Below, one piece after another: positions 1 through 30,865 of a stretch of DNA of 30,865 nt. The stretch's first letter is position 1; every line of letters starts with the position of its first letter. A program made the translations under genes and the position numbers. Below the pieces are notes generated by a model, which was not told the DNA's origin, did not search any database, and worked only from the letters and a program-made list of their open reading frames with translations. Source of the stretch: an uncultured Ruminococcus sp. (lineage in GTDB: Bacteria > Bacillota > Clostridia > Oscillospirales > Acutalibacteraceae); assembly GCA_934476515.1 (NCBI GenBank), contig CAKSNZ010000026.1, forward strand, positions 1 to 30,865. The letters are read 5' to 3'.

Positions 1-49
1 CAACTTGAGTTTTAATTAACTCAAAGTCATTTTCGGGTTTCTTGTTCGT

Positions 50-67
50 TGTTTAATTTTCAAGGTC
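50..67 (-). promoter_or_regulatory. boxA-like element of a probable rRNA leader
   Basis: Read on the minus strand this is GACCTTGAAAATTAAACA, similar to the TTCTTTGAAAACT stretch found before 16S genes in Firmicutes, where it serves as a boxA antitermination site. It lies about 75 bases downstream of the strong promoter at 143-171. A 7-bp inverted repeat (TTGAGTT/AACTCAA) sits nearer the window edge and could belong to a processing stem. No 16S sequence is inside the window, so the rRNA assignment is inference. Confidence 0.5.
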
Positions 68-142
68 CGTTGTTCCTTCTGAGTTTCTTCCTTACTCTCG
101 ATTTCTCTTAAGTTTTTCCGTTTCCTCAGCGGAACGTGTTTT

Positions 143-171
143 ATTATACGGCTATTTCTCAACTTTGTCAA
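143..171 (-). promoter_or_regulatory. Very strong promoter, probably of an rRNA operon leaving the window
   Basis: On the minus strand the sequence has a perfect -35 TTGACA (166-171), a 17-base spacer and a perfect -10 TATAAT (143-148). Immediately upstream, at about 172-210, are runs of A on the minus strand that resemble an UP element. No coding region follows before base 1. Together with the boxA-like sequence this fits the P1 promoter of an rRNA operon transcribed leftwards. A tRNA or other stable-RNA operon is the alternative. Confidence 0.8.
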
Positions 172-401
172 CACTTTTTTTCAACTTTTTTTAATTTTTT
201 TTAAATTTCTTTTCACTACGCTATATATTGATATTTTAATTAATTTTTACACAATATATAGTTATATTAGATATCAATAATTGCTATACTATTTGATAAT
301 TCTTTGTATTTCCCACAAAATTATTTAAAATATTTTTTTAAATTTAATTTTCACTTTCAAATTTATTTCTATTATCCACAATTAATTCCTATTTTCTTCT
401 T

Positions 402-437
402 ATAATAAAACAGCCGATGCTTTATTTTGCACCGGCT
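402..437 (-). terminator. Rho-independent terminator, probably of ackA
   Basis: On the minus strand a 9-bp stem (AGCCGGTGC with GCATCGGCT, one G-U pair; 412-420 and 429-437) is followed by GTTTTATTAT. It is the first terminator-like hairpin after the ackA stop, about 190 bases downstream, so the repeat at 518-597 would lie in the ackA 3' untranslated region. Confidence 0.6.
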
Positions 438-517
438 AGATTATTTAAAGTATTTAATAAATGAATATAACTTATTCTTTTACAAACAATATTATTAATG
501 TATTATGATTTAATATG

Positions 518-597
518 TAACATTGTAAACAAGTTTACAATGTTAACCACTCCTTCCGTCTTTGCTACGCAAAGCCACCTCCCTCAGCGAGGGAGGC
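518..597 (-). repeat. Triple-hairpin repeat, family 1, copy A
   Basis: Read on the minus strand the element has three hairpins. Hairpin 1 is an 8-bp perfect stem, CCTCCCTC/GAGGGAGG, with a GCT loop (578-596). Hairpin 2 is CTTTGC/GCAAAG with a GTA loop (560-574). A linker containing GGAAGGAGTGGTT follows. Hairpin 3 is a 13-bp perfect inverted repeat with a TT centre inside AAACTTGTTT (518-530 and 533-545). The copy at 15119-15194 has the same linker and hairpin 1, but hairpins 2 and 3 differ in sequence and still pair. There is no coding capacity. It lies between the ackA stop and the ackA terminator. Confidence 0.8.
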
Positions 598-624
598 TTT
601 GAAAGTTTTATTTTTTATATTAAA

Positions 625-8734: not shown

Positions 8735-8962
8735 TCACGCTTTATTAACGGGCGAACAATTAAGTAAACATCAAAGAAAACGAGCCATAGGTGAAGTTTG
8801 ATTTGTTAATGTGAACTTATGCAAAAGCTTTTTTCATAAAAAACTTTTGTAGTGAATTTCCTACAACTGTAAGCCAAAATTTTTATAAAAATTTCTACAA
8901 CTGTGGGTCAAAACTTTTATAAAATTCATACAACTGTTAGCCTTAGCTTTTATAACAATTCA
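8735..8962 (+). repeat. Family-2 repeat, copy C (degraded, variant body)
   Basis: This copy shares a 78-base block (8750-8827) with 30673-30750, differing at three positions. The block starts at GGGCGAAC and includes an ATCAAA/TTTGAT inverted pair. After it, copy C has an extra hairpin (CAAAAG...CTTTTG, 8822-8849) that the other copy lacks. The right end carries the family's terminal motif CTACAACTGT(A/G)(A/G)G(C/T)C. The left terminal repeat is not recognisable. No coding capacity. Confidence 0.75.
8861..8962 (+). repeat. Tandem repeat of the family-2 terminal motif, three units of about 34 bases
   Basis: Three diverged units begin at 8861, 8895 and 8928, each with the form (C)TACAACTGT-NNG(C/T)C-AAAA-TTTTATAA. 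The unit is the right terminal repeat of family 2 plus a T/A tail. Single copies occur at 15401-15420 and 30770-30790. The array ends four bases before the rluB stop codon. Confidence 0.8.
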
Positions 8963-14580: not shown

Positions 14581-14846
14581 TGTCTAAATTTTATAGATTG
14601 TTCACTAATAAACTTGTTGCGTATGGTCGTGTATGGTTTGTACCCCTTTTCAAAACTTCTCTATATAATATATTTATATTTTCTTGTATAAAGAATAATA
14701 AAAACCCTAAAACCCTACACCATTTCCGTTAGTATTTTGTCTTATCTAAATATTATACTGCAAATTTTAGTTTATCAATTTTGTTTGTGGGTAAAGATTA
14801 ATCAGTTTTACAAATTAGGGTTTGTAGAGTTGTTTATGTAATGTAG

Positions 14847-14884
14847 ATAAATTAGATAGTAACCGATTTATTCATCTAATTTAT
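14847..14884. repeat. 11-bp inverted repeat
   Basis: ATAAATTAGAT (14847-14857) and ATCTAATTTAT (14874-14884) are perfect inverted copies around a 16-base loop, followed on the plus strand by AGTTTTT. All A/T-rich, so terminator strength is doubtful. It borders the family-1 copy E cluster. Confidence 0.6.
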
Positions 14885-14894
14885 AGTTTTTCCC

Positions 14895-15026
14895 TCCTTC
14901 AGTCGATTTATAAAAGGTAAATTGCCGTTCCGTCAATTTACAATCGACTAGCTTTTCTAGCGAAAACGGCAAACCCTTTGTCCCTAACGGGACATTTCCC
15001 TTAGCAAGGGAATACCTCGTCTGAGG
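14895..15026 (-). repeat. Family-1 repeat, copy E, with nested hairpins
   Basis: Read on the minus strand, TTCCCTTGCTAAGGGAA (14996-15012), then ATG, then GTCCCGTTAGGGAC (14980-14993), then CAAAGGG repeats the order of copies A and B: hairpin 1, three-base joint, hairpin 2, AAAGG linker. Hairpin 1 shows a paired change (C-G in A and B, T-A here). Beyond the linker is a larger structure: AGTCGATT/AATCGACT (14901-14908, 14942-14949) enclosing GTAAATTG/CAATTTAC (14917-14924, 14934-14941). TTGCCGTT, largely within that loop, is complementary to AACGGCAA at 14965-14972. A short CTAG/CTAG hairpin (14948-14960) and CCTC/GAGG (15015-15026) complete the cluster. Confidence 0.7.
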
Positions 15027-15118
15027 GAGCCTTTGTCTTTATCACAATTTCTACTAATTTATAAAGTTCGTACTATTTAGAAATTACGTAATAAGTTTAG
15101 ATTTGTACAGACCTTGTT

Positions 15119-15194
15119 GCCTCCCTCGCTGAGGGAAGTGTCACCGAATGGTGACGAAAGGAGTGGTTGATATTTTAAACTTGTTTAAAATATC
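15119..15194 (+). repeat. Triple-hairpin repeat, family 1, copy B
   Basis: Hairpin 1 TCCCTC-GCT-GAGGGA (15122-15136), hairpin 2 GTCACC-GAAT-GGTGAC (15140-15155), a linker GAAAGGAGTGGTT, and hairpin 3, a 12-bp perfect inverted repeat with centre AAACTTGTTT (15169-15180, 15183-15194). The flanks match copy A almost base for base; hairpins 2 and 3 have changed on both sides so that pairing is kept. Confidence 0.82.
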
Positions 15195-15246
15195 ATCATG
15201 GCTGAAACTTTCCTCTATTTCTAACTACAAAGTATAAGAAAATTAT

Positions 15247-15415
15247 GAGTTACAGGTGTAGGGTCCAACATCGTTGGACCGAGCAAATTAACCTCTTTAT
15301 TGGCATATTGCCCTATGTAGATATTATAAATTTATAATCTGCAAATAGGACAAAAATCCCATAGGTATCACACTTTTTAACGGGCGAACGGTGTTCGCCC
15401 CTACGACTGTGAGCC
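15247..15415 (+). repeat. Family-2 repeat, copy B (complete, short form)
   Basis: A 169-base element with imperfect inverted ends (GTTACAGGTGTAGGG on the left; CCCCTACGACTGTGAGCC on the right). Inside each end is an 8-bp palindrome with a three-base loop: GGTCCAAC-ATC-GTTGGACC (15262-15280) and GGGCGAAC-GGT-GTTCGCCC (15382-15400). The body at 15331-15389 matches 30622-30680 at 57 of 59 positions, with weaker similarity further left. No coding capacity and no transposase nearby. Confidence 0.82.
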
Positions 15416-15481
15416 AAAATTTTGCTATAATTTACACCTACAAACCCAAATTTACAAAACTAATATTCTTAATCCACAGAC

Positions 15482-15516
15482 AAAAAGAAAGTAGGATTAC
15501 ATTACTAATGCAATCC
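15482..15516 (-). terminator. Terminator of uvrA
   Basis: On the minus strand GGATTGCAT pairs with ATGTAATCC (15508-15516 and 15494-15502; one G-U pair) around a 5-base loop, followed by TACTTTCTTTTT. About 80 bases after the uvrA stop. Confidence 0.75.
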
Positions 15517-15593
15517 CACAAATACTTTGATTTTTTAATATAAAATTTCTTAAATTAAAGCCATTATAAAGTAAAAGCTTTTTTAAATTAGAA

Positions 15594-30535: not shown

Positions 30536-30784
30536 TGACTCACAGTTGTAGGGGACATCATTGATGTCCCGTTATAAACTATCCTATTTATCGGTATTAC
30601 CCACTGTGTAGTAAGTTATAATTTATAATCTGCAAATAGGACAAAAAGCCCATAGGTATCACACTTTTTGACGGGCGAACAATTAAGTGAACATCAAAGA
30701 AAACGAGCCATAGGCGAAGTTTGATTTGCTAATGTGAACTTATGCAAAAGTTTTTTGTAGTGAAGCCCCTACAACTGTAAGCCA
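30536..30784 (+). repeat. Family-2 repeat, copy D (complete, long form)
   Basis: A 249-base element with 19-base terminal inverted repeats: TGACTCACAGTTGTAGGGG (30536-30554) and CCCCTACAACTGTAAGCCA (30766-30784) match at 17 of 19 positions. Just inside the left end is GGGACATC-ATT-GATGTCCC (30552-30570). The body at 30622-30680 matches copy B, and 30673-30750 matches copy C, so this copy joins the two. In place of the right-hand palindrome seen in copy B it carries the 78-base block. No coding capacity. Confidence 0.85.
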
Positions 30785-30841
30785 AAATTTTGTTGTAATT
30801 TTGTCCTATGTAGTTACCTTAAATTTGTACATATTCGCCAG

Positions 30842-30865
30842 TCTCCCTTGTGTAAAGGGATAAGT
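30842..30865 (+). repeat. Truncated family-1-like repeat, copy F
   Basis: TCCCTT-GTGTA-AAGGGA (30844-30860) followed by TAAGT resembles hairpin 1 plus the joint of family 1 (TCCCTC-GCT-GAGGGA-AGTG in copy B). The window ends before hairpin 2, so membership is tentative. Confidence 0.45.

Follow-up and report, generated by a model that had tools for sequence, protein, structure and literature searches.

Two repeats in a 30,865-nucleotide stretch of DNA from an uncultured Ruminococcus sp. (the window, by which we mean the whole stretch that was analysed) raise the question of what keeps three hairpins in place while the letters of their stems change. The preliminary description of this DNA proposed either a functional RNA fold or a mobile palindrome whose movement requires hairpins; on the evidence below, the mobile palindrome fits best and the functional RNA fold fits less well. 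Copy A lies at 519-596 on the minus strand and consists of hairpin 1 (CCTCCCTC GCT GAGGGAGG; 578-596), hairpin 2 (CTTTGC GTA GCAAAG; 560-574, stems 574-569 and 565-560), the G-run GGAAGGAG with a TGGTT linker (545-557), and hairpin 3 (AACATTGTAAAC TT GTTTACAATGTT; 519-544). Copy B lies at 15120-15194 on the plus strand, with hairpin 1 at 15120-15138, hairpin 2 (GTCACC GAAT GGTGAC) at 15140-15155, GAAAGGAG and the TGGTT linker at 15156-15168, and hairpin 3 (GATATTTTAAAC TT GTTTAAAATATC) at 15169-15194. Copy B is contained in a composite repeat block (14778-15541, no strand assigned), and upstream of it the plus strand carries a unit of right-end type (14892-15031) with CTCCTTCAGTC, a long hairpin 2, and a hairpin-1 remnant split by other palindromes.

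Folded as single-stranded DNA, each copy formed three hairpins and none of 200 shuffles was as stable (z -7.6 for copy A, -6.5 for copy B), which bore out the preliminary description in taking the two triple-hairpin copies as real. Its further statement that every change is matched on the opposite arm did not hold: C15121 faces A15137 in hairpin 1 of copy B, leaving one broken pair, and GGAAGGAG of copy A is GAAAGGAG in copy B. With up to 3 mismatches allowed, the hairpin-1 motif had 4 matches in the window against 0.04 expected, namely the exact sites in A and B, the reverse reading of A, and a weak site at 14997-15012. A covariance model matched copy A at 550-596 (66.4 bits, E 9e-15, copy A being among the 38 model-building sequences) and copy B, which was outside that set, at 15120-15163 (37.6 bits, E 7e-8). 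Chance palindromes were set aside as an explanation by the excess of hairpin-1 matches, by the stem excess over shuffled middles and by the covariation against shuffles, the last two of which are given below.

Further palindromic sequences were observed in the window. Palindromes beside GTAGGG/CCCTAC at 15255-15285, 15378-15412 and 30543-30575 have constant flanks and exchangeable stems (GTCCAAC/GTTGGAC, GCGAAC/GTTCGC and GACATC/GATGTC), with pairing kept there too; they look like GTAG-tagged REPs. A 92-base repeat at 8742-8833 and 30665-30756 (93% alike) starts GGGCGAACAATTAAGTGAACATC and looks as if another hairpin element had entered the loop of a GGGCGAAC palindrome. The end of the window (30839-30865) is apparently a further left end with a different hairpin 1 (CTCCCTTGTGTAAAGGGA), a sequence that is present in several units carrying a DUF559 gene, which are described below.

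The wider distribution of the repeat was followed through the fixed frame around the variable hairpin 2, CTCCCTC-loop-GAGGGAG...GGARGGAG, in which GGTG precedes and ACGG follows hairpin 2. The pattern CTCCCTC-N3-5-GAGGGAG-N14-40-GGARGGAG was found in 46 of the 295 genomes of the order and in 32 of 148 genera, and the backwards pattern, used as a control, had 0 matches in the same 295 genomes. Named genomes held the pattern in at least 118 stretches, with 80 loci listed; among the matches listed, many were titled Clostridia or Oscillospiraceae, and some Selenomonadales and Bifidobacterium. The covariance model had matches in 50 of 120 genomes of the family. The left-end pattern also occurred in 36 viral-contig stretches (L216-L251). 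Two gene families recur beside these viral-contig elements, which look like phage terminase and portal genes.

Hairpin 2 was hypervariable yet paired. A perfect stem of at least 5 bp was present in 132 of 168 distinct middles (the remainder includes chance matches) against about 6% of shuffled middles, and the longest perfect stem was 5-7 bp in 110 of the 168. Watson-Crick pairs filled 542 of 577 stem cells in 93 of the 96 distinct sequences analysed, the other three having been dropped by a stricter-frame rule that itself keeps only foldable ones, and all four pair types were used at each of stem positions 2 to 6. Among 38 aligned left ends, from which only helix 2 was used and in which helix 1 was distorted by rows with 4-base loops, 65 hairpin-2 cells were changed on both sides, at five of six pairs. 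Over the whole structure these left ends had 66 double-changed cells compared with 16.4 in shuffles (0/500) and at most 31 in slid controls; one of the five whole-structure measures, the number of pairs changed on both sides, was not beyond shuffles (6 vs 4.8, 82/500). The covariation that had been read from copies A and B thus stands pair by pair once relatives are added, but not between A and B themselves, in which hairpin 2 is swapped whole with no compensated point changes. The proposed check by covariance model in related genomes was confirmed in that many copies were found and hairpin 2 pairing was kept.

Within a single genome the change took another form. The nearest genome, G001, has half of the window's sampled 31-letter words in common; BLAST of copy A gave 61 whole or partial matches in it, and the covariance model of hairpins 1 and 2 gave 36. 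Among 59 placements in G001 there were four hairpin-2 forms (two short, two long) and three hairpin-3 forms, with 8 of the 12 combinations present. The copies are a mosaic, and within the genome change is the swap of whole palindromes. The hairpin-3 form of copy A was absent among these 59 placements and that of copy B was common; hairpin 3 was seen only in G001 and window copies and lies outside the widespread frame. In the blocks inspected, most G001 copies lay some tens of bases 3' of a right-end unit. Two loci (L017, L018) have the family hairpin 1 interrupted by another hairpin element (TAAGTGAGCATCC...AACTTATGCA). At L012, L019 and L312 a transposase-bearing insertion, presumably IS30-like, abuts or splits the hairpins, and it also occurs just 3' of the DUF559 gene.

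The site of copy A was empty in G001. Window positions 1-506 and 617-1900 match there side by side, so that a stretch of 110 bases around copy A (507-616, minus strand) is missing after ackA. The two matches overlap by 15 and 6 AT-rich bases, no clear target duplication was seen at copy A, where the flanks are AT-rich or diverged, and no right end was found within 600 bases of it. Where the window has copy B, G001 carries a block that differs from it, together with some 12 kb of other sequence.

The largest recurring family of open reading frames beside the elements was a small nuclease found at five loci and identified as DUF559 (PF04480); next in size came the phage genes of the viral contigs and a two-member family. 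The left end of readable units runs GAGGGAGGTG, hairpin 2, ACGGAGGGATTG and ATG or similar, followed by the DUF559 gene, and the right end, inverted, runs CAATCCCTCAGTC, hairpin 2, GACAGCTCCC and hairpin 1. The G-run stands where a ribosome-binding site would be expected before the gene, and the G-run GGAAGGAG of copy A occupies the same position that precedes the DUF559 start codon in gene-bearing units. At seven loci (L256, L257, L268, L271, L274, L276 and L278) the DUF559 reading frame stops at a TGA that belongs to the right-end hairpin, an open reading frame having been returned by the ORF finder in 14 of 30 DUF559 loci.

The gene was bracketed by a matched inverted hairpin, defined as a stem and loop recurring inverted 250-900 bp away with at most 1 mismatch, at 19 of 30 DUF559 loci of the order compared with 2 of 30 Y1 loci in the same scan; the other 11 DUF559 loci had no such pair. 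The scan used 6-bp stems; requiring identical full hairpins gave few pairs, as the left and right ends do not share the same outermost base pair of hairpin 1. The span was 430-455 bp in 14 of the 19 bracketed units, and the full unit is about 445 bp. Counted by side, with short-flank loci omitted (7 DUF559, 9 Y1), 34 of 46 sides of DUF559 matches had paired hairpins within 250 bp, against 7 of 42 sides for Y1_Tnp, and farther out at the same DUF559 loci 2-3 of 46 windows had them. DUF559 was present in 40 of 147 genomes of the order (taken as G001 and G037-G182), divided as 16 of 22 pattern-bearing genomes against 24 of 125 others (p 1.5e-6). Y1 was not enriched (9 of 22 against 44 of 125).

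We therefore put forward, with a probability of roughly 0.62, that a family of very small DUF559-bearing mobile elements has hairpins 1 and 2, together with GGARGGAG, as its left terminal structure; for copies A and B, a solo left end is the best reading. An alternative, unlikely but to be taken seriously, is that DUF559 is a frequent passenger within hairpin ends that some other enzyme moves. This would agree with the 6 of 22 element-bearing genomes in which no DUF559 match was found, with the occurrence of solo ends, and with the DUF559 gene of G001 that lies outside such ends. It is opposed by the uniform unit, in which DUF559 is bracketed with its ribosome-binding site and stop codon inside the ends, by its rank as the largest recurring family beside the elements (Y1 being the sole other enzyme compared), and by similar bracketing with quite different hairpins in distant bacteria. 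Outside the order, in plasmid-record flanks from 20 of 38 records, a matched pair was present at 7 of 20 DUF559 loci (three Deinococcus, three Sphingomonadales and one Pseudanabaena) against 0 of 311 control windows, and no matched pair was found at the remaining 13.

Several of these distant loci had noteworthy neighbours. In Sphingomonas, one such DUF559 gene lies between sufB and sufC. The DUF559 genes of L343 and L348 sit in ordinary clusters, paaD-paaZ in Deinococcus with matched hairpins and transhydrogenase subunit genes in Sphingomonas with no matched pair. In Shinella, Sinorhizobium and E. coli (L336, L339, L341), palindromic repeats occur on one side of DUF559 with no matched pair found; we take them to resemble rhizobial RIME and E. 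coli boxC.

The DUF559-bearing family differs in occupancy between orthologous sites. G083 and G039 carry a DUF559 unit at a site that is empty in G101 and G064, with HSP overlaps of 41 and 31 bp. The filled sites have a 39-40-bp flanking direct repeat, and the empty site of G101, read directly, has a single copy; for the L262 unit, the empty site of G064 is given by overlapping HSPs only, a direct motif search there having found nothing. The L258 unit has a 56-bp flanking repeat with 1 mismatch. Flanking-repeat scores were 107, 78 and 75 in three units, which include one insertion counted in two genomes (L262 and L263), against a background maximum of 26 in 270 pairs; no clear flanking repeat was found in the other 14 of 17 gene-bearing units tested. 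L281 and L090 are likewise one place. G064 has a 163-bp gene-less copy with both ends that three sister genomes lack, and no target duplication was readable there, the flanks being AT-rich or diverged. Gene-less two-ended copies comprised 16 matched pairs of 100-275 bp. G064 and its sister genomes also hold left ends with no right end recognised within 700 bases, although one of these left ends does have a right end that escaped the strict pattern. DUF559 units sit at unrelated places. These results indicate that shape is kept while sequence is free, that the gene-bearing unit is defined, and that presence and absence occur at orthologous sites, in one gene-bearing and one gene-less case.

The RNA explanation, according to which the repeats are structured RNA (a 3'-UTR stabiliser or terminator-like element) under transcript selection, is improbable. 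Copy A does lie where the preliminary description placed it, in the 3' region of ackA (625-1833, assigned by TIGR00016), downstream of the stop codon and before a terminator-like hairpin near 415-440, and from this position it is probably transcribed. There was also a mild tendency to follow an open reading frame of like orientation, as 56 of 91 intergenic placements did. Among non-Watson-Crick stem cells, G.T exceeded A.C by 9 to 1 (p 0.011), which marks the written strand as the folding strand and is silent on DNA versus RNA. Against selection on a transcript, the window had 0 Rfam matches at gathering score, the sites are polymorphic between close genomes, and 84 of 207 placements are inside open frames called by a naive ORF caller, 42 in each orientation. 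The RNA fold (z -3.7 for A and -3.9 for B, 0/200 shuffles as stable for each) is less outstanding than the DNA fold, and the minimum-energy RNA fold of copy A has another stem in place of hairpin 2, which the centroid retains. The loops of hairpin 2 also speak against RNA: of 93, 41 are GNA triloops and 13 are GNRA tetraloops; the C-GNA-G loop confers high stability on DNA hairpins. A regulatory RNA was set aside as the main reading on the Rfam result, the polymorphic sites and the stronger DNA than RNA fold, and we lean towards DNA as the folding molecule.

Template switching during replication keeps palindromes symmetric (quasi-palindrome correction), and stems of passive copies might covary in this way without selection; the exchange of whole palindromes rather than single pairs in G001 would suit it, but it leaves unexplained why the frame is constant, certain loops are preferred, a gene-bearing unit exists and the target is duplicated, and it is very improbable. 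It is equally hard to believe that a RAYT (Y1) transposase moves these repeats as ordinary REP elements, since the likeness of the hairpins, head-to-head pairs and composite blocks to REP arrangements, as described in the excerpted text of PMC3733652, is outweighed by the absence of GTAG at these hairpins, a single weak Y1 match in G001 (26.4 bits), and a Y1 gene that is rarely bracketed and not enriched in pattern-bearing genomes; on the Y1 results that transposase was set aside as the mover.

The reading as left ends of a DUF559-bearing family also draws on the protein. Residues D41, E52, D54 and H58 were invariant in 17 of 17 DUF559 proteins and are putatively catalytic. The predicted model (mean pLDDT 80.9) was closest to the catalytic domain of the homing endonuclease I-Bth0305I and then to 3HRL, with Vsr weaker, and the structure match to 3r3p had E 9.5e-5. 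Judged by this model, DUF559 would have the fold and the conserved acidic and histidine residues of Vsr and I-Bth0305I-type homing endonucleases. A Caulobacter DUF559 protein is termed Vsr-like and tied to the SOS response in the excerpted text of a 2026 paper.

In the full unit, the left hairpins 1 and 2, the G-run and one DUF559 gene are followed by the inverted right hairpin 2 and hairpin 1. DUF559, as the candidate mover of these ends, may recognise the shape of the paired hairpins, with the DNA probably single-stranded or extruded, and nick the two target strands tens of bases apart, after which repair synthesis would produce the target duplication. Short copies and solo ends may have been moved in trans, or may be remnants. 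Other observations count against this role of DUF559. The best DUF559 gene of G001, a strong match beside which the genome has a second, partial one, abuts other coding sequence and is without these hairpin ends, and the window itself showed no DUF559 gene that could be assigned to copy A as its mover; for the window this is the weakest point. In addition, G001 blocks place the right end before the left end, an order not accounted for by a simple unit.

Gut Clostridia, like other bacteria, commonly carry palindromic repeats between their genes, and whole groups of these repeats have no known moving enzyme; the small DUF559 unit, whose ends match, is a direct candidate for that role. If hairpin-marked DNA is moved by a Vsr-like nuclease alone, such units would rank with the smallest mobile elements that are autonomous, and shape recognition would account for the free change of stems with pairing kept. 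A broader proposal, which we hold tentatively and at rather less than even odds, is that DUF559 with shape-coded hairpin ends constitutes a new, widespread class of minimal mobile elements inserting with duplications of tens of bases, and that several palindromic repeats of different phyla that lack a partner belong with it (among them CGTC-tagged repeats, and RIME and boxC by likeness only). A search of a library of PubMed Central papers found no paper linking DUF559 to such hairpin repeats.

Among known systems, the CGTC-tagged repeats, as presented in the excerpted text of a 2013 survey (PMC3733652), have no dedicated transposase, and Clostridia are not named for them in that text. The present family shares with them free stem variation, head-to-head pairs and the lack of a known transposase, and its hairpin 2 read on the other strand is CCGTC-stem-loop-stem-CCAC, that is, a CGTC tag and a CCA-like tail. 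In our set the reverse-strand GACGG = CCGTC was present in 93 of 93 analysed hairpins, ACGG having belonged to the search frame, and GTGG, CCAC on the reverse strand, was present in many. The stems of CGTC-tagged repeats are 8-9 bp (PMC3733652, excerpted text), whereas perfect stems here are mostly 5-7 bp, hairpin 2 adjoins a fixed hairpin 1, and copies of it flank a DUF559 gene. With REP/RAYT systems the family shares short intergenic palindromes, composite blocks and a nuclease gene between repeats, but it has no GTAG tag and its partner gene is DUF559, not Y1. The likeness to MITEs is partial: complete copies such as L328 have inverted ends, copies A and B being solo; short gene-less copies occur, as does a gene-bearing partner sharing those ends; and of 17 gene-bearing units, 3 had a clear target duplication (two of these being a single insertion), with none read at copy A. 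Unlike MITEs, its ends are conserved by shape, its flanking repeats are 39-56 bp, and its partner is a nuclease with a predicted homing-endonuclease fold. Free-standing homing endonucleases of the I-Bth0305I and Vsr fold resemble it in the predicted fold of DUF559, closest to the I-Bth0305I catalytic domain, and differ from it in that the units here occupy unrelated scattered sites and have structured ends and gene-less copies. The family thus lacks a tested defining feature of REP/RAYT systems and of CGTC repeats, and resembles both, and MITEs, in part.
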